Source: a virus. Taken from it: a DNA stretch of 25,270 bases. The notes beneath the pieces were generated by a model. That model had not been told where the DNA came from and did not search any database. It saw nothing but the letters and a program-made list of their open reading frames with translations. The stretch is from the IMG/VR virus record IMGVR_UViG_3300035698_011368, positions 1 to 25,270 of that record. The stretch is one strand, 5' to 3'. A program made the position numbers and the translations under genes. Shown here piece after piece: positions 2,653-23,718 of the stretch; the stretch's first letter is position 1, and every line of letters starts with the position of its first letter.

Positions 2653-2671
2653 CGGTGGGTCGGCCTTTTTT
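2646..2671 (+). terminator. intrinsic-terminator-like hairpin overlapping a stop codon
   Basis: The stem pairs GCC (2646-2648) plus GAC (2651-2653), with a two-base bulge, to GTCGGC (2659-2664), enclosing a GGTGG loop. It is followed by C and six T at 2666-2671. It overlaps the end of the DUF5681 gene. The short stem and bulge predict partial rather than complete termination, so transcription into the terminase and head genes would need read-through or a downstream promoter. Confidence 0.4.
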
Positions 2672-2699
2672 GTGTCTTCAAATAAAGAGGAGAGTTCAG

Positions 2700-3137
2700 A
2701 TGAGGAAGCAATTCATGTTAGCAGCCGCAGCCGTTGCGTTGGTGGTTGCGTTGGCGTTGTCATGTATGGCAGCTGATGCGGTGGAGTCACCCACCTACAC
2801 CATCACAAGCGCATTGAGCGATAGCGCGTCAAACCTTACCGCGACCCCGGCGTTCTACGGAACGACGATCGCCTTCACGAACTGCCTGTGCTTGGACACG
2901 GACAACGTCTCCACCCAAGGTCTGGACACGGTGGCTGTAGAATTGCGAGTAGGGACAGCAGCGTCCTCAACCGCATACGCCTGCACAACCAACACCGTGA
3001 CGGACACGTGGTACGTGAGCAGCGTCGTTGTTCCCAGCAACACAAGCTCCTACGTTCAGGTGAAGATCACGGACTCTACCTCCAACGTCCGCATCTACCC
3101 TTGGCGCACGTTGCGCGCATCGGCACCTCTGCAGTAG
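2700..3137 (+). CDS. secreted-type small protein with signal peptide, 145 aa
   Basis: ATG at 2700 has AGAGGAGAG at 2686-2694 as SD. The N-terminus (two basic residues, then a hydrophobic stretch to about residue 22 ending SCMAADA) is a textbook Sec signal peptide, with likely cleavage after the first or second Ala group. The remaining ~118 residues are rich in Thr, Ser, Val and Asn and look like a single beta-sandwich domain with three Cys. It lies between the DUF5681 gene and the large terminase, an odd place for an exported protein. Four other proteins in the window share this architecture. Decoration or periplasmic role is possible but unproven. Confidence 0.65.
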   Translation: MRKQFMLAAAAVALVVALALSCMAADAVESPTYTITSALSDSASNLTATPAFYGTTIAFTNCLCLDTDNVSTQGLDTVAVELRVGTAASSTAYACTTNTVTDTWYVSSVVVPSNTSSYVQVKITDSTSNVRIYPWRTLRASAPLQ

Positions 3138-10057: not shown

Positions 10058-10465
10058 ATGAAGAAAGTAATTCTGATTGCGCTGCTGGCGCTGACGTGCA
10101 CGATCGCCGTCGCGGAGCTGACATCTCGTTGGTCCGGTGGCGCCTTGATCTTCTTCAACAAAGCAACCGGGGTCTCGGTGCTGACGATTGCCGATGATGG
10201 AGTAACCTTCAACATCGCGCCGACGTTCAGCGACGGGGCCATCCCGCTTGTTTCGCTTGCGGCGCTTGAGCCGGGGCAGATCATCGTAGGTAACGCGACT
10301 TCGAACGCGGCTGCGGTGGTGGTGTCCGGGGACATGACGCTTGCGACGAACGGAGTAGTGGCGACAGCTGGTATTGATACGAACATCAGCTTCATCACGG
10401 ACACCGGAGTCACGAACATCATCAACGTCACGAACGGCCAGATCTACGCTGTGAGTGCGCCTTAA
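10058..10465 (+). CDS. signal-peptide protein in the head module, 135 aa
   Basis: ATG at 10058 with AAAGGAAAG just upstream. MKKVILIALLALTCTIAVAE is a typical Sec signal peptide with SPase I cleavage likely after AVA. The mature part is short-strand, Gly/Thr/Val/Asn-rich, with phrases such as GQIIVGNATSNAAA and VTNIINVTNGQIYAVSAP that resemble repeat strands of phage fibre or collar proteins. It is flanked by hairpins on both sides and followed by a second signal-peptide gene. It may decorate the virion or be exported; the family is not recognised. Confidence 0.6.
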   Translation: MKKVILIALLALTCTIAVAELTSRWSGGALIFFNKATGVSVLTIADDGVTFNIAPTFSDGAIPLVSLAALEPGQIIVGNATSNAAAVVVSGDMTLATNGVVATAGIDTNISFITDTGVTNIINVTNGQIYAVSAP

Positions 10466-10529: not shown

Positions 10530-10970
10530 ATGAAGAGAATAATTTTGTTGATAACCTTGCTGGCGGCTGTGCTGGTCTTCGCCGAGGGAACGGTCACCCC
10601 GACGCGCATGGGCAAGTCGGCTACGGTGGAACGCTACTCGCTAGCGTGGACGACCTCGACGAACGAGTTCGCGACTTACACAACGACCGATGCCATTCGC
10701 GGAGAGATTCTGCGGGTAACGTTTACGCATGCAGCCGGGGTGTCCAACCTCTATGACGTTACGCTGACCGATCCGAACGGGGTAGATGTGCTGGCCGGGA
10801 ACGGTGCGAACATAGCGGTGGCCACGGTTGTCACTTCTGTCCCAGAACTCCCCGTGACGGACGGAGTCACCACTTCGATGGTGCCGTTCGCCGTTTGTGA
10901 TTTCGTGACCTTGACGGTTACGAACGCCGGATCGGAATTGTCCGGCACGGTTAACCTATACGTAAAGTAA
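10530..10970 (+). CDS. signal-peptide protein in the head module, 146 aa
   Basis: ATG at 10530 follows AAAGGAAG. MKRIILLITLLAAVLVFAEG is a Sec signal peptide, probably cleaved after VFA. The mature 127 residues look like one beta-sandwich domain: alternating Thr/Val strands, a DVTLTDPNGVDVL segment resembling beta-sandwich turns, and a final TLTVTNAGSELSGTVNLYVK. Its overall plan resembles the signal-peptide protein at 2700-3137. The unit sits between capsid and connector genes, where decoration proteins can occur. Function unknown. Confidence 0.6.
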   Translation: MKRIILLITLLAAVLVFAEGTVTPTRMGKSATVERYSLAWTTSTNEFATYTTTDAIRGEILRVTFTHAAGVSNLYDVTLTDPNGVDVLAGNGANIAVATVVTSVPELPVTDGVTTSMVPFAVCDFVTLTVTNAGSELSGTVNLYVK

Positions 10971-17134: not shown

Positions 17135-17499
17135 TGCCTCGAATTGAGTACATTCCTCCGCACGCCAAGAAGCTTGATTTCAAAACGCTCAAGCAGATCG
17201 TGGACGCATGCAATGCATTCATACGCTTGCGCTTCGACCCGCGTTACTTCAACACGTTGGGAGACTTAATCTCGATGCGAGAAACCAGTTCCTCAGCGTT
17301 TTCTGGCGTGGCGTTCGCGCCGAATGGAAATCCGACAACGGGGTTGAATTCCAACACGTCGAAAGCTTGGGTCAAGTACGATTACGATTTGGATAAGTTT
17401 ACACAAGAAACCGGACCACCAAACGAGACATGGTCCACTAACGAGGTATGGTTTGAAAAAGCTAACACTTACGGCAACATCGTTATTACTCGCGTGTAG
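17134..17499 (+). CDS. hypothetical tail protein, 121 aa
   Basis: TGATG coupling with the upstream gene. The N-terminal 45 residues are helical with KTLKQIVDACNAFIRLRF; the rest is Thr/Ser/Asn-rich and beta-like. Its last 47 bases also encode the signal peptide of the next gene in another frame. It may be a small tip or adaptor component. No family recognised. Confidence 0.5.
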   Translation: MPRIEYIPPHAKKLDFKTLKQIVDACNAFIRLRFDPRYFNTLGDLISMRETSSSAFSGVAFAPNGNPTTGLNSNTSKAWVKYDYDLDKFTQETGPPNETWSTNEVWFEKANTYGNIVITRV

Positions 17500-19159
17500 C
17501 GCTTCGTTCGCCGGGTGGAACACTAACGCTTGGCCGTCAACGGACTTTTACCGCTTCGTAGTAACCACGAACGTCGACAACCGCGTTGTGGTGTCGAACC
17601 TTTATGCACGCAAACACACAATTGTCTTCTCACAAACTTCCACCACGAACTTTATACCTTCGTTGACCGCGCTCGAAGTCTGGGAAAATCTTTTTTACGG
17701 CGGACCCGACGGAACAATCTGGGACTTTGACGATAGGTATTCTGCCGCCGTTTCAATCGCAGCTGCAAGCACGAATGCGCGCACATGGTCGAACACGTTC
17801 TACGACAGCATGCAAGTTGACGTACCCGCAACGCTCGTAGCTGCCTGGTCTTGGTCGAATCCTCCCGACAGTTGGGGTCTGCCTGTCACGAACGAAGCGG
17901 AATTTGTACTAGGGGGTGTCACCCAGATCGCATACACCGTTGTAGAGAGCCACACGACGACTGGAGGCCTTTTGTTGGCGCACATGGACGCTGTTGACGT
18001 GTGGGGTCTGGAATGCTACCAAGCGCGTGCTGAGCGCTGGTACGCGTTGAACCCGACGGCCAGCGACATCCGGGATGACTTGTCCAGCGCGCATAAACCT
18101 GTTTTCTACAAAAGCATGCGCGACAACCTGCTGGCCCATAAGGCTTGGTGCAAAGCGAATGCTGCAGCGTTCCTCGACCCGGACACGAATCAGCTGGATG
18201 TGCTGAACGCCACGACAAACTTCATGCCCTTCACCGCAACCGGGAATCTTGTCCGCGCGTCGGCACCGACAAACTATTATGACTTTACTCCGTGGCGCGA
18301 GTTGTCCGGTCGTGGAATCGGGGAAGGCCGCATTGTTACAAACCGATTCACAATAGCGGCTGCGGCTGGTGAAACGGTTACGAACACAGTTACCGATTAC
18401 TGCGGAAACGAATCTGACATTGTCGGTACGAACGGGCAGGTGTTTTCGTGGACGTGCACAAACGTGGACGTGCAAGTAGGATATACAACGCTTGACTACG
18501 GATGGAAGTACGCGCGGGAGATCGTAAATCCCCTTGTCATGGTTGAGGTCGACCCTACCACGACATCGCTCGTTGTCACGAATTACTTCTACAACACTGG
18601 AGACACCGGAACTTGCGCGCTGGTCGAAGCTGAACTGCCGAACAATCCGTACTACTACCAATACGTAAGTGCCGACGTTGGAATTCGGTACGACATGCAC
18701 GTAGGCAGCGAATGGCGTTTCCCTCCAGGAGATTACGTTTACTATACAAACATCACCGGGATGGCGCGTCATTCAAACTGGCGGTTGTATTCGCACGCTG
18801 ACGCGTGGACAAACGCGGCACACGGCACAACGTTCTACGCGTTGCCAATCGACCCGTCAGATACGCCAGGACCTTACCGCGAAGTGGTTTATGAAGATTA
18901 CACCGACGGAAACTTCACCGTCGACGTGTGGTCTGCATTCTCCTACGTGGTGGGATCCGAAGCAAGCCCGACTTCAGGCGTGCTTGGCTTCACGAACACC
19001 TTCCCAGAACCTTTTCCACCGTGCACCGAAATAACGTGGTCGTTCCCGTTGGGAAGTGAGAATCAAACAAGTAAAGTTTATGGCATTGAATTTGACACGG
19101 ACTACCGCGCGCATACTCGGTACGACGTTTCTAACGGTTTCGAGTTCGTTGAAGACTAG
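17453..19159 (+). CDS. large secreted-type protein with signal peptide, 568 aa
   Basis: TTG at 17453 with GAGG at 17443-17446 (6-nt spacing). The first residues, MKKLTLTATSLLLACSASFA, form a textbook signal peptide, so this rare start is preferred; the first downstream in-frame ATG is beyond residue 110. The mature part is Asn/Thr/Tyr/Trp-rich with many beta strands and no recognised catalytic motif. A LLAC stretch could also act as a lipobox, though it is non-standard. The gene lies in the tail-tip region, where a receptor-binding or tip hub protein is expected; export of such a protein would be unusual. Confidence 0.65.
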   Translation: MKKLTLTATSLLLACSASFAGWNTNAWPSTDFYRFVVTTNVDNRVVVSNLYARKHTIVFSQTSTTNFIPSLTALEVWENLFYGGPDGTIWDFDDRYSAAVSIAAASTNARTWSNTFYDSMQVDVPATLVAAWSWSNPPDSWGLPVTNEAEFVLGGVTQIAYTVVESHTTTGGLLLAHMDAVDVWGLECYQARAERWYALNPTASDIRDDLSSAHKPVFYKSMRDNLLAHKAWCKANAAAFLDPDTNQLDVLNATTNFMPFTATGNLVRASAPTNYYDFTPWRELSGRGIGEGRIVTNRFTIAAAAGETVTNTVTDYCGNESDIVGTNGQVFSWTCTNVDVQVGYTTLDYGWKYAREIVNPLVMVEVDPTTTSLVVTNYFYNTGDTGTCALVEAELPNNPYYYQYVSADVGIRYDMHVGSEWRFPPGDYVYYTNITGMARHSNWRLYSHADAWTNAAHGTTFYALPIDPSDTPGPYREVVYEDYTDGNFTVDVWSAFSYVVGSEASPTSGVLGFTNTFPEPFPPCTEITWSFPLGSENQTSKVYGIEFDTDYRAHTRYDVSNGFEFVED

Positions 19160-19177: not shown

Positions 19178-19774
19178 ATGGCTGACGAAGTTAGAAGGTT
19201 GATGACCGTCTACCTAAACGGGGACGAGTCGAAAGAGGTAGGAGTTAACGGGTTGAAGATGAACGCGAGGAAGATCTTCAGAGGCAACCGATTGCTTCTC
19301 CAGATGCACCTGCGTAAAGATGACAACGTTACGTATTACTCTTTACCAGCCAGCGCCACTTTCGGTTTCGGTATTGACGCCGAATATGGTGTAGGTGACG
19401 CGAATGCGATTTGGTCTGCTAACGCGAAGTTCAATGTCTCCGGTGACTGGGCGGACTCTGATCCTACGGCAGGGAAACTATCCGTACAGGTTGACACGAA
19501 CACAGCCGCGATCGGAGCACTTTTGACCGCGTCCGCTGGTGGCCGTATCACGGTGAGCTGCGGATTGTGGATGACCTACGCGGGTGCGAATACCTTGCTG
19601 TGCCACTGGGACTGGCTGCTCTTCGACACACGGGTGGACTACGGTACCCTGAGCACTGCGGACGCTCAAGCGTGGAACGAACTGCTGGAGACCTATGTCG
19701 CGGCTAGCGGTGCTCCGGCGCTGAGATTGAAATACGAAGATGGAACAACTGCAGACACATGGGAGAAGTACTGA
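19178..19774 (+). CDS. putative tail tip/fibre-associated protein, 198 aa
   Basis: ATG at 19178 has a strong SD AAGGGAGGGG at 19161-19170. The N-terminus (ARKIFRGNRLLLQMHLRKDD, about 29-48) and TFGFGIDA resemble the start of baseplate/fibre adaptor domains. The remainder is beta-rich with two Cys and a helical WNELLETYV near the end. No signal peptide. It overlaps the next ATG by one base. Role inferred from position. Confidence 0.5.
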   Translation: MADEVRRLMTVYLNGDESKEVGVNGLKMNARKIFRGNRLLLQMHLRKDDNVTYYSLPASATFGFGIDAEYGVGDANAIWSANAKFNVSGDWADSDPTAGKLSVQVDTNTAAIGALLTASAGGRITVSCGLWMTYAGANTLLCHWDWLLFDTRVDYGTLSTADAQAWNELLETYVAASGAPALRLKYEDGTTADTWEKY

Positions 19775-20925
19775 TGTACAAGAAGCTGATAGTTATACTT
19801 AGCATGCTGGTGGTCGGAACGGCGCTGGCTGGACCCGGACGCTTCGCGCCTACGGTCTTCATGAACGACGTCGAGGTCGGCTCGTGGGCTGCTGCCACGA
19901 ACGTAGCCGGGGCCATGACCAACCACGTCTACTCGGTCTACACGAATGCGGCAGTGACATACACCAACTACTACCGGGTAGGCGGCACGAACGGGCAAGG
20001 TTACATTCCGCTTTCTTCCCAGGATAGCGTGATCTTCGTTGGTAACACTAACGGTGTTTCGAATGCAGTAGCTGTGACATGGGATCGGGTAGATGGCATC
20101 TGGATGTACGCTTTGGAACGCTCCACGAACTCAGGATCGACGTGGGCTTGGTACTCGCTTGACGAGTCCACCCAAACGTTCATAGATTACGGTGATACAA
20201 CGGACTGGACATCCGGGTCGGTCACGGATTCGGTAAGCGCCATAGGAGCCGCTACAGTCGATTTGTCAGGTGCAGCCGCCTTGGTGGTGCCGCTAACCCC
20301 TGCTGCGGATGCTGAGGCGGCTTCTAAGAAATACGTGGATGACGAGATTTCAGGGTTCGCCCCGGTTGAAGCCGACCCGTTCTTTGTGGCTTATTCAAAC
20401 TCGGCTGCCTTCATCGCCGATGTTAGAACCGCACAAACGAACGACGGTTATGAAGCGAACACCGATACTCAACTCGACATTGCTACATTCGCGAAGCTCG
20501 ATACAATTGTCGCTGACAAGACGTTGATGAATGACGCTGACGATATCGGAGTATCGGTTCAAGCGTGGGACGCAGACCTAGACTATCTTGCAGGATTCAC
20601 CATGTCGGCCAATGTCAAGTCCATCCTGAATGCAGCGAACTATGCCGCGATGCGAGGGTTGCTCGACCTTGAAGCTGGCACAGACTTCTACGGCCTGACC
20701 GCAGAGAACACTTGGCGCAATAGTGTGACTCAAACTGAAATGGGATACCTTGATGATGTGACAAGCGATATCCAAACGCAGATAAACACCAAGCTGGAGT
20801 GGGCTTCTGCTCCCGCTTCTGCAACTGCGGCAGGCACGGCTGGTCAGATAGCCTACGATTCAAACTATATCTATGTGTGTGTTTCAACTGATGTGTGGCG
20901 TCGCAGTGTCATAGCTGCTTGGTAA
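19774..20925 (+). CDS. tail fibre protein with N-terminal signal peptide, 383 aa
   Basis: ATG at 19774 overlaps the upstream stop (TGATG); an in-frame ATG at 19759 lies inside the preceding gene and would bury the signal peptide. MYKKLIVILSMLVVGTALAG is a Sec signal peptide. Residues about 95-140 look like a fibronectin-III-like domain (VTWDRVDGIWMYALERSTNS). Residues 184-192 are SKKYVDDEI, a motif widespread in phage fibres. Then come fibre-typical segments (QAWDADLDYLAGF, TQTEMGYLDDVTSDIQTQI) and the C-terminal domain GTAGQIAYDSNYIYVCVSTD. Clearly a fibre by sequence; the leader is anomalous. Confidence 0.75.
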   Translation: MYKKLIVILSMLVVGTALAGPGRFAPTVFMNDVEVGSWAAATNVAGAMTNHVYSVYTNAAVTYTNYYRVGGTNGQGYIPLSSQDSVIFVGNTNGVSNAVAVTWDRVDGIWMYALERSTNSGSTWAWYSLDESTQTFIDYGDTTDWTSGSVTDSVSAIGAATVDLSGAAALVVPLTPAADAEAASKKYVDDEISGFAPVEADPFFVAYSNSAAFIADVRTAQTNDGYEANTDTQLDIATFAKLDTIVADKTLMNDADDIGVSVQAWDADLDYLAGFTMSANVKSILNAANYAAMRGLLDLEAGTDFYGLTAENTWRNSVTQTEMGYLDDVTSDIQTQINTKLEWASAPASATAAGTAGQIAYDSNYIYVCVSTDVWRRSVIAAW

Positions 20926-20946: not shown

Positions 20947-21147
20947 ATGGCTGACAAAGACCTGAAATTGATTCAAGAACAAGCCGACGGATCGTTCCTC
21001 GAAGTGGACACGACTCCTGCGGTTAATGAGGTGCTTGGTTTCGACGCAAGCAAAAACCCAGTGAGTAAAGATGCCCACGATATCGACTCCGGAAGCGCAG
21101 TGATTGGCGGGGATGCAAACTTAATACTAGACGGAGGTACAGCATGA
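20947..21147 (+). CDS. small fibre-associated protein, 66 aa
   Basis: ATG at 20947 after CTGGAGAATAATC. Contains LKLIQEQADGSFLEVDTTPA and VLGFDASKNPV, phrases like those in small proteins or domains preceding phage fibres. It ends ILDGGTA, with TGA overlapping the first ATG of the repeat array (ATGA). It was probably once directly coupled to the fibre gene at 21274. Confidence 0.55.
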   Translation: MADKDLKLIQEQADGSFLEVDTTPAVNEVLGFDASKNPVSKDAHDIDSGSAVIGGDANLILDGGTA

Positions 21148-21245
21148 GGATTCATAATACTAGACGGAGGTACAGCATGAGGATTCATAATACTAGACGG
21201 AGGTACAGCATGAGGATTCATAATAAAAACGGAGGTACAGCATGA
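21144..21245 (+). CDS. micro-ORF from the repeat array, 33 aa
   Basis: From the first repeat ATG, the 33-bp units keep frame for three copies, giving the 11-residue unit MRIHNTRRRYS twice and then MRIHNKNGGTA. The switch to 32-bp units makes the frame end at a TGA that overlaps the fourth ATG. It has its own SD. Whether it is translated for a purpose or only passes ribosomes on is unknown. Confidence 0.3.
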   Translation: MRIHNTRRRYSMRIHNTRRRYSMRIHNKNGGTA

Positions 21246-21277
21246 GGATTCATAATAAAAACGGAGGTACAGCATGA
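21242..21277 (+). CDS. micro-ORF from the repeat array, 11 aa
   Basis: From the fourth ATG, with its SD at 21231-21235, to a TGA that overlaps the fibre gene's ATG. The peptide is MRIHNKNGGTA and ends with the same four residues as the upstream gene product. Possible leader or relay peptide. Confidence 0.3.
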   Translation: MRIHNKNGGTA

Positions 21278-22470
21278 GGATTCAGAATAAAAGAGATACG
21301 GCGGCAAACTGGACAAGCGCAGATACAGTATTGCTGGAAGGCGAAGTCGGCTTTGAAACCGATACGGGTCTGTTCAAGATTGGTGACGGTTCAACGGCAT
21401 GGACTTCCCTTGCGTATGCTGGTGGTGGAGGTACAGCGCAAGTAGACGGAACCTACGGCATTGAAGCAACAGCCGAAGGCGCAACTGCTGGTAATGCCCG
21501 TGGCGAGAACTCAGTAGACTTATGTACGAAGCGAAGCAATGCGGCTTATGTTCCTGCTGGCATTTGTTCAATGAATGCTGCTGGTGAGAATAACGGTGGG
21601 AGCGGAACTCATACGATTTATTCTGGTAAGAATAACCACACCAACACAGGCGACTACTGCTCAATCAGCGGCTCCTACCACCACAGCAACTCAGGCAATT
21701 ACTGCCAAATCAGCGGCGGCGGTAACTACAGCAACTCAGGTACTCACTGCTCAATCAGCGGTAGCGGCAACCACAGCAACACTGGCAATTACTGCATAAT
21801 CAGCGGCGGCGGTAACTACAGCAACACTGGCAATTACTGCCAAATCAGCGGCTTCTACCACCACAGCAACACTGGCAATTACTGCCAAATCAGCGGCGGC
21901 AGTAACCACAGCAACTCAGGCACCCACTGCCAAATCAGCGGCCTCTACAACCACAGCAACACAGGCAATTACTGCCAAATCAGCGGCGGCAGTAACCACA
22001 GCAACTCAGGCAATTACTGCATAATCAGCGGCGATAATGCAAACAACAACAATCTTGATTTGGCAAGAGTTCATGGTGGCAATACAAACGCCCGAATTAT
22101 TGACCTTGTTGCTCAGATTGATTCAAGTGGAACAGGAGCTACAGAATTGCTATTAGGTGGTTCTGGTGGAACTAGAATTATCATACCCGACCAAAGTGCG
22201 TGGAATGTAGATGTTAGATTTGTAGCTAAAACTGCAACAGGAGCAAATGCAGCTATCCAGAACTTCACTGGAATCATCATGCGTGATGGAACAAGCACAA
22301 CCTATGCAGCAGGAACGTCTGATGCAGCGATTACTGAGATAGGAACAAGTACGGCCGCATTCACGGTTGCGGCTGACGATACGAATGAAGCCCTGAAGTT
22401 GACGGTAGCGGCAAGCTCTGGTGTGCTGAGAGCATCTGCCCGTATCCAGTTGACCCAAGTAGATTATTAA
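21274..22470 (+). CDS. tail fibre / receptor-binding protein with Cys-ladder repeats, 398 aa
   Basis: Starts at the fifth repeat ATG. Residues 1-48 (IQNKRDTAANWTSADTVLLE ... GFETDTGLFKIGDGSTAW) form a known phage fibre N-terminal module. Residues 126-260 contain nine 15-residue units of the form GNYCQISGGxNxSNS, with Cys at 129, 144, 159, 174, 189, 204, 219, 234 and 249, suggesting a stacked beta-helix or trimeric fibre shaft. The C-terminal ~110 residues, with IIIPDQSAWNVDVRFVAKTATG and LKLTVAASSGVLRASARIQ, resemble a domain common at the end of fibres and tailspikes. It should bind the host surface. Confidence 0.8.
   Translation: MRIQNKRDTAANWTSADTVLLEGEVGFETDTGLFKIGDGSTAWTSLAYAGGGGTAQVDGTYGIEATAEGATAGNARGENSVDLCTKRSNAAYVPAGICSMNAAGENNGGSGTHTIYSGKNNHTNTGDYCSISGSYHHSNSGNYCQISGGGNYSNSGTHCSISGSGNHSNTGNYCIISGGGNYSNTGNYCQISGFYHHSNTGNYCQISGGSNHSNSGTHCQISGLYNHSNTGNYCQISGGSNHSNSGNYCIISGDNANNNNLDLARVHGGNTNARIIDLVAQIDSSGTGATELLLGGSGGTRIIIPDQSAWNVDVRFVAKTATGANAAIQNFTGIIMRDGTSTTYAAGTSDAAITEIGTSTAAFTVAADDTNEALKLTVAASSGVLRASARIQLTQVDY
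21649..22053 (+). repeat. nine tandem 45-bp in-frame repeats
   Basis: Units are highly alike in DNA as well as protein, with cores such as aattactgccaaatcagcgg followed by ggcagtaaccacagcaac. The last unit decays after the Cys. In-frame length (45 bp) means copy-number change would lengthen or shorten the shaft without a frameshift. Confidence 0.9.
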
Positions 22471-22817: not shown

Positions 22818-22897
22818 TGCACACCACAGGACATGAAGATCGGAGACTAGGACTCGCCTTTCCTAGTGTCTTGTGGTGTGCAACCAAAGGAGTCCTA
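22818..22897 (+). promoter_or_regulatory. structured leader of the sulfotransferase gene
   Basis: Outer stem 22818-22833 with 22867-22882: 16 bp with one wobble. Inner stem 22847-22852 (CTAGGA) with 22861-22866 (TCCTAG). A competing 8-bp pairing joins 22848-22855 (TAGGACTC) to 22890-22897 (GAGTCCTA), covering part of the SD AAAGGAG at 22886-22892. The competing helix and the inner stem cannot both form; with the outer stem it would be a pseudoknot. This looks like an attenuator or translation switch; no known riboswitch class recognised. Confidence 0.5.
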
Positions 22898-22899
22898 CA

Positions 22900-23718
22900 A
22901 TGATATTTTTTAACAGCTCAATGCCCCGTTCAGGTTCAACCCTGATTCAGAACATCATGGGTCAAAACCCTGATATACACGTCACGCCTACGGATGGGTT
23001 TCTGGAACTGATCTACGGTGCCAGAGTCAACTACACAAACAACGCTGAGTTCAAGGCGCAAGACGCTGAACAGATGCAGGCCGCGTGGCGAGGATTCTGT
23101 CTGGAAGGAATGAAGGGCTACGTTGCTGGTCTGTCCGATAAGCCGAACACTTGCATCAAGAGCCGTGGTATCGGAGAGCAGTTCAACTGGTTCTCTGCCT
23201 TTATGGGTAAAGACCCGAAGGTGATCGTCATGGTGCGGAATGTGAAATCCGTACTTGCTTCGATGGAGAAGATGCACAGGGCCAACAGCGAGAAAGCCCA
23301 AGCGGTTCACAACCCAAGTGAGCTGCGGGGATTGACCACAGAGAGCCGTGTCAGCCAGTGGTTGCAAGGACCGCCCGTAGGCTTAGCGTTACAGCGCTTA
23401 CAGCAGATGAGCCTTGAGGGAACCGTGGATAAGTGCCTGATCGTTCGCTACGAGGATTTGTGCAAGAATCCTGCTATCGAACTGGGCAGGGTGTACCAGT
23501 ACCTCGGCCTTGATCCTTTTGCCCACGACTTCGAGAACGTGGAGCAGGTCACGCAAGAGGATGATGCGGTGTATGGTATGACCCCGACGCTACATAAGGT
23601 TCGCAAGAAGGTTGAGGTTAGCAAGCCTGACTATCTGGATGTTCTTGGCGAAGGACTCTGCAAATGGATCGATGAACAGTGCGCTGGATATCAACAGGAC
23701 TACGGGTATCGAGCGTAA
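22900..23718 (+). CDS. sulfotransferase (PAPS-dependent, Sulfotransfer_3-like)
   Basis: 272 aa, ATG at 22900 with AAAGGAG at 22886-22892. The N-terminal PSB loop SSMPRSGSTLIQNIM (residues 6-20) binds the 5'-phosphosulfate of PAPS. The second site VIVMVRNVKSVLASM (about 108-122) supplies R113 and S117 for the 3'-phosphate. A later LIVRYEDLCKNP (180-191) is the usual family segment. The enzyme should transfer sulfate to a glycan, lipid or protein; substrate unknown. Its location after fibre genes suggests a target on the virion or the host surface. The donor PAPS would come from the host. Confidence 0.82.
   Translation: MIFFNSSMPRSGSTLIQNIMGQNPDIHVTPTDGFLELIYGARVNYTNNAEFKAQDAEQMQAAWRGFCLEGMKGYVAGLSDKPNTCIKSRGIGEQFNWFSAFMGKDPKVIVMVRNVKSVLASMEKMHRANSEKAQAVHNPSELRGLTTESRVSQWLQGPPVGLALQRLQQMSLEGTVDKCLIVRYEDLCKNPAIELGRVYQYLGLDPFAHDFENVEQVTQEDDAVYGMTPTLHKVRKKVEVSKPDYLDVLGEGLCKWIDEQCAGYQQDYGYRA

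Follow-up and report, generated by a model that had tools for sequence, protein, structure and literature searches.

The fibre gene of the phage analysed here is preceded by five tandem copies of a segment that carries both a Shine-Dalgarno (SD) sequence and a start codon. This raises the question of whether the number of copies controls fibre expression or whether the array has another origin. The window is the complete 25,270-base virus record IMGVR_UViG_3300035698_011368 of IMG/VR and, since it is the whole record, the copy number of the array rests on a single assembly. No close relatives of the phage were found in IMG/VR in searches by the unit sequence and two neighbouring proteins, and protein P0002 had no match among phages; the capsid shows only distant kinship to capsids of Streptomyces, Bradyrhizobium and Caulobacter phages. 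SD-like sequences precede most genes of the phage, and overlaps of -4 and -1 nt are found at other junctions (12216, 12554, 13980 and 17134).

Sequence and reading frames of the array

The initial annotation described a tandem duplication of an SD sequence and start codon in five units of 33 or 32 bp, and a letter-for-letter check agrees with this exactly: positions 21122-21284 read (TAATACTAGACGGAGGTACAGCATGAGGATTCA)x3 followed by (TAATAAAAACGGAGGTACAGCATGAGGATTCA)x2 (Table 1). Its location for the array was right, but the edges that it gave (21121-21292) are slightly too wide; the array comprises 163 bp and a short partial repeat up to about 21289. The TRF score is 287, at 33 bp. All five units carry GGAGG-N6-ATGA. 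Allowing at most three mismatches, the unit core has five matches in the window, all of them within the array, against a chance expectation of 0; the array is not a chance product. The unit sequence had no exact match in other viral contigs. The 32-bp type could be a hybrid with the sequence just downstream of the array (AATAAAAGAGATACGG at 21286). Folding of the array is no greater than that of shuffles (z +0.88), no promoter-like site was found in it, and it has no Rfam match.

The ORF coordinates also bear out the relay that had been read from the sequence, in which the 66-aa gene stops on the first start codon (ATG1), a 33-aa micro-ORF on the fourth and an 11-aa micro-ORF on the fifth, which is the fibre start. 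The codons GGA GGT of the 66-aa ORF form the SD of unit 1, and this ORF had no match in Pfam, PHROG or the phage collection. The relay is an arithmetic result of ATGA and a 32-bp period (2 mod 3), and for this reason we dropped it as independent evidence of design.

The Major tropism determinant N-terminal domain (Mtd_N, PF18454) matches fibre residues 3-41 (E 5.9e-14, 52.2 bits, cut-off 26.3). Since the match opens at residue 3, ATG5 is very likely the real fibre start. A second tandem array, which adjoins the first, lies inside the fibre gene at 21634-22033 and consists of about nine in-frame 45-bp (15-residue) repeats of the NHSNTGNYCQISGG type. Directly downstream of the fibre module is a sulfotransferase-family gene (22873-23718; PF13469/PF00685), which matches PHROG 27463 (function unknown). 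By eye, signal-peptide-like N termini (e.g. MKKVILIALLALTCTIAVAE, MKRIILLITLLAAVLVFAE and MKKLTLTATSLLLACSASFAG) were seen in ORFs 2655-3137, 10058-10465, 10530-10970, 17453-19159 and 19759-20925, in or beside the structural module, which is odd for virion or tail genes.

Table 1. Features of the array and of the adjoining genes, in positions of the window.
Feature	Coordinates	Strand	Description
66-aa ORF before fibre	20947..21147	+	ends ...LILDGGTA-stop; TGA overlaps ATG1 (ATGA)
Unit 1	21122..21154	+	33 bp; SD GGAGG 21133-21137; ATG 21144
Unit 2	21155..21187	+	33 bp, identical to unit 1; ATG 21177
Unit 3	21188..21220	+	33 bp, identical to unit 1; ATG 21210
Unit 4	21221..21252	+	32 bp, TAATAAAAACGG replacing TAATACTAGACGG; ATG 21242
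Unit 5	21253..21284	+	32 bp, identical to unit 4; ATG 21274, the fibre start
33-aa micro-ORF	21144..21245	+	MRIHNTRRRYSMRIHNTRRRYSMRIHNKNGGTA-stop; ATG1, ATG2 and ATG3 share the frame; stop on ATG4 (ATGA)
11-aa micro-ORF	21242..21277	+	stop on ATG5 (ATGA)
Fibre gene, 398 aa	21274..22470	+	starts at ATG5; Mtd_N, then 15-residue repeats

Copy number and the fibre gene

We modelled 19 copy-number states, combining 0-4 of the 33-bp units with 0-3 of the 32-bp units. The fibre ORF was complete and had its own SD and ATG in all 19, so a change in copy number cannot switch the fibre off. The upstream ORF kept its 66 aa in the model whenever at least one 33-bp unit was retained, and otherwise became only a few residues longer. 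An N-terminal extension (+11 aa per extra unit) appeared only when both 32-bp units were gone and at least two 33-bp units were left, and the normal start persisted. It had been stated correctly that 33-bp units keep the frame and 32-bp units break it, yet no switching follows from this. The N-terminal extension that had been predicted from copy-number change is thus retained for the loss of both 32-bp units and rejected as a switch, since the normal start stays. In a contingency locus, which the array resembles according to the initial annotation, the number of units switches a gene on or off or alters its frame; the modelled states offer the optional extension only and do not support that assignment.

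The unit as a copy of a gene junction

The unit is a copy of an overlapping stop/start junction, that is, an ATGA with the SD inside the upstream gene. The upstream gene ends in Asp-Gly-Gly-Thr-Ala-stop, and a G-G-x-x-stop ending is forced by the 6-nt spacing together with ATGA (GGA GGN NNN NNA TGA). At the four loci with the closest fibre N termini (L003-L006), the upstream ORF ends in NGGSA or NGGTA before the stop and shares 1 nt with the fibre start; at L011 it ends in DGGSSL before the stop, with a 4-nt overlap. The junction is single-copy at each of these loci. Because a coupled junction is ordinary here, both in the relatives and in view of the other overlaps of the phage, the fivefold copy is the unusual and new part. 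The array in the window phage is a real feature with an ordinary mechanism and an unusual copy number.

Replication slippage probably amplified the ATGA junction between the small tail gene and the fibre gene in tandem. Each unit joins the last codons of the upstream gene, among them the Gly-Gly codons that hold the SD, to the first ones of the fibre gene. Such a duplication leaves both proteins intact: whatever the copy number, the first unit still closes the upstream gene and the last one still opens the fibre. Ribosomes that have finished the 66-aa gene may restart at ATG1, make the 33-aa micro-peptide and stop on ATG4; they may then restart there, make a peptide of 11 aa, terminate on ATG5 and begin again at the fibre. 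Experiments in E. coli and Haloferax have demonstrated SD-dependent termination-reinitiation at overlaps of the ATGA type (PMC6728339), and coupled re-initiation, as originally suggested for the array, is supported as a plausible route. Each of the five strong SD sites could also take up ribosomes directly, since the region lacks structure and de novo initiation is therefore possible at every one. Some ribosomes should drop off at every step of a reinitiation chain, and by itself the relay could thus reduce fibre output. Any net change in fibre dose is expected to be modest, in either direction.

Junction arrays in other genomes

In order to survey the architecture more widely, we scanned viral and genome contigs for two or three SD-ATG units and ran pattern searches on three sets of about 400 whole genomes each. 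Exact SD/ATG spacing was required, matches were filtered by unit (lag) identity and reading frame, and ORF calls were used, not annotation. An array was included if ATG1 coincided, at a 4- or 1-nt overlap, with the end of an upstream ORF that has 50 codons or more, and if the last ATG opened an ORF of 90 aa or more. The matches of a first broad two-copy scan were mostly acidic coding repeats (GAGGAGGATGA...) and chance pairs, which lag identity and reading frame removed.

The same architecture exists elsewhere, in 2-5 copies with periods of 17-50 bp, before unrelated genes. These include genes for shikimate dehydrogenase/kinase, a response regulator, a zinc dehydrogenase, a sugar kinase, an NADH-dehydrogenase-type antiporter, an ABC transporter, an iron-sulfur protein and a TPP enzyme, among others. 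Since the downstream genes are so varied, the architecture is not a fibre device, contrary to how it had first been read. One of the three genome sets, with 397 genomes of the phylum to which G004 (L164, Thermomonas) belongs, yielded no additional array, and the class is therefore rare in that phylum.

Among the matches listed, and with the window excluded, there are 18 uniform-period arrays at overlapping junctions. The period is 2 mod 3 in fourteen of them (L170, 50 bp; L217, 41; L219, 26; L233, 50; L237, 38; L239, 29; L242, 41; L253, 29; L271, 38, viral; L302, 23; L308, 35; L338, 38; L339, 20; L340, 23), 1 mod 3 in three (L189, L215, L348) and 0 mod 3 in one (L305). In 14/14 of the 2-mod-3 arrays every micro-ORF stops precisely on the start that follows it, and two of the three 1-mod-3 arrays still close a micro-ORF no more than 8 nt from the following ATG (L348 at -1, L189 at +8). 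Compared to an expectation of 1/3, 14/18 corresponds to p = 1.4e-4 among the matches listed, in a small survey whose array class was defined after the first examples and in which the two-copy arrays L308, L338 and L339 are either short or diverged. With the same restriction to the matches listed, the comparison of 2 with 1 mod 3 only gives 14/17 against 1/2 (p = 0.006), and arrays of at least three copies give 10/12 (p = 0.019). The arrays found after the idea arose, a small set, agree with this at 5:1:1 (2:1:0 mod 3) plus one mixed array. Arrays without a clear gene start divide into 16 at 2 mod 3 and 11 at 1 mod 3, and for this reason the contrast between the array classes is suggestive only.

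Mixed periods (17, 17, 18) occur at L346, in the family of G002, like those of the window (33, 33, 32, 32); the last step at L346 is an in-frame extension, as the window would show after the loss of its 32-bp units. In one viral contig (L278:1799-1937) a DUF5906 gene follows five SD-ATG units of 34 bp that have diverged from one another, with SD and ATG kept and the remainder different. With its period of 1 mod 3, it is perhaps an older array in another phase. A single actinobacterial MAG (G001) has two separate 26-bp junction arrays (L219 and L261) with similar units, GGAGGCACGCGATGAGCACCGTGCCC x4 and GGAGGGCGCGAATGAGCACCGCGACC x5.

The simplest account for all of these arrays is that slippage may duplicate any stretch of DNA and that a duplicate of an ATGA junction would survive if ribosomes passed from the first start to the true one. 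A period of 2 mod 3 would lead to termination-reinitiation, a period of 0 mod 3 to an in-frame extension, and a period of 1 mod 3 would send ribosomes into the third frame. The window array uses only the residues 2 and 0 mod 3, the two that are permitted. The distribution of periods suggests that selection keeps termination-reinitiation intact in junction arrays.

Weighing the explanations

Taken as a whole, the account that we consider likely is that of a slippage-amplified junction, in which the array is most likely tolerated and would at most tune fibre translation mildly, in an analogue manner, without turning it on or off. A contingency (phase-variation) locus, where copy number would switch fibre expression or yield N-terminally extended fibres and so create subpopulations, has some attraction: identical tandem units can slip, the array adjoins a host-range-type gene, and, with both 32-bp units lost, fibre isoforms would arise that exceed the normal length by 11, 22 or more residues. 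Nevertheless, the fibre ORF or its start was lost in none of the modelled states, housekeeping genes are preceded by the same architecture elsewhere, and units of 32-33 bp are long compared to classical contingency repeats, which are shorter; we give this reading little probability. A selected dosage amplifier, with five SD sites raising ribosome loading so that fibre copies exceed those of the upstream protein, is somewhat easier to defend and still unlikely. The five sites have the optimal GGAGG-6-ATG form with no stable folding, and in M. tuberculosis fpg1 mRNA was higher where the tandem array that ends at the start codon of this gene was longer (PMC2734929). However, the fpg1 repeats differ from the present ones and their effect was seen at the mRNA level (PMC2734929). 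In addition, initiation at ATG1-4 yields micro-peptides and needs reinitiation to reach the fibre, the upstream sites may compete, and one site suffices in the relatives.

The array is known from a single virus record without reads, so an inflated or chimeric copy number in a short-read metagenome was also considered. We judge such an artefact to be very improbable: the longest exact internal repeat (71 bp) is shorter than ordinary 150-base reads, two distinct unit types stand in order, comparable arrays are present in genomes of named Streptomyces strains (e.g. L215 and L217), and assemblers tend to collapse repeats more than to invent them. Operators and iterons are commonly identical tandem units, and the array could in principle bind a repressor protein, a small RNA or a recombinase instead of serving translation. 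This is scarcely credible, since the gene-junction copy explains the unit fully, the array shows no promoter-like site, Rfam family or excess folding, and the record has no further copy of the unit core. Going beyond the preferred account of a tolerated, slippage-amplified junction, one may propose that tandem junction amplification is a widespread, undescribed kind of repeat in bacteria and phages which is selected for periods of 2 (or 0) mod 3 and thereby records selection for termination-reinitiation, with the window array tuning fibre dose by serial reinitiation. We regard this larger proposal as possible and lean against it.

Most of the interest lies in the wider array class and in the bias of its periods. 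If the bias holds in a full survey, the arrays would be a natural experiment that shows, with no need for reporter constructs, that selection maintains ATGA coupling across unrelated genes and hosts and that ribosomes can pass through a series of several micro-ORFs. The phage would then illustrate how a fibre gene can carry a rapidly changing leader and yet not risk the loss of the fibre, which is the opposite of an on/off switch.

Comparison with known systems

The searchable literature, with most subscription papers outside its scope, gave no description of tandemly amplified overlapping junctions or duplicated SD arrays, and several known systems share part of the architecture. Translationally coupled overlapping pairs (ATGA/TGATG; PMC6728339) are defined by a stop/start overlap of the type ATGA or TAATG/TGATG with an SD in the upstream ORF, and the window has ATGA with an SD inside the upstream ORF at ATG1, ATG4 and ATG5; such pairs ordinarily have one junction, whereas the window has five in series with micro-ORFs between them. 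The rnc-fpg1 repeats of M. tuberculosis (ETR-F/VNTR3239) are intergenic tandem repeats that likewise end at a start codon and whose length correlates with expression, but they are longer and composite, their effect is on mRNA, and a micro-ORF relay is not described for them in the available part of the source (PMC2734929). Bicistronic designs and leader minicistrons (PMC12548453, PMC5995908) resemble the array in that a short SD-bearing leader ORF feeds a closely coupled downstream start; they are engineered with a single leader, whereas the window array is natural and repeated. The TAACTGA heptamer repeats before Beggiatoaceae start codons (PMC4679880) are also tandem repeats at the ribosome-binding region, although with 7-bp units that have little SD character and no start codon.

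The form of the array had been regarded as unfamiliar, but it does have a precedent in the mycobacterial interspersed repetitive units (MIRUs), which were first reported from between senX3 and regX3 (Supply et al. 1997, as cited in PMC12548453 and PMC2734929). A 2025 review states that MIRUs insert at start codons, where an ORF within the repeat becomes coupled to the gene at -4 nt, and that expression is probably little affected (PMC12548453). Both have a repeat-borne small ORF with a 4-nt stop/start overlap with the next gene (in the window, as ATGA at units 4 and 5), in both the neighbours stay translatable, and MIRUs are tandem at some loci. They differ in size, MIRUs being 40-100 bp (PMC2734929) compared to the 32/33-bp unit here, and in distribution, since MIRUs are apparently mobile and occur at many loci of a mycobacterium, whereas the window unit is a local junction copy in a phage, found in the array only within the 25-kb record. 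As it has neither the size nor the scattered, mobile nature of a MIRU, the array works like one without being one; MIRUs are the nearest known case, and the array has the same working principle.
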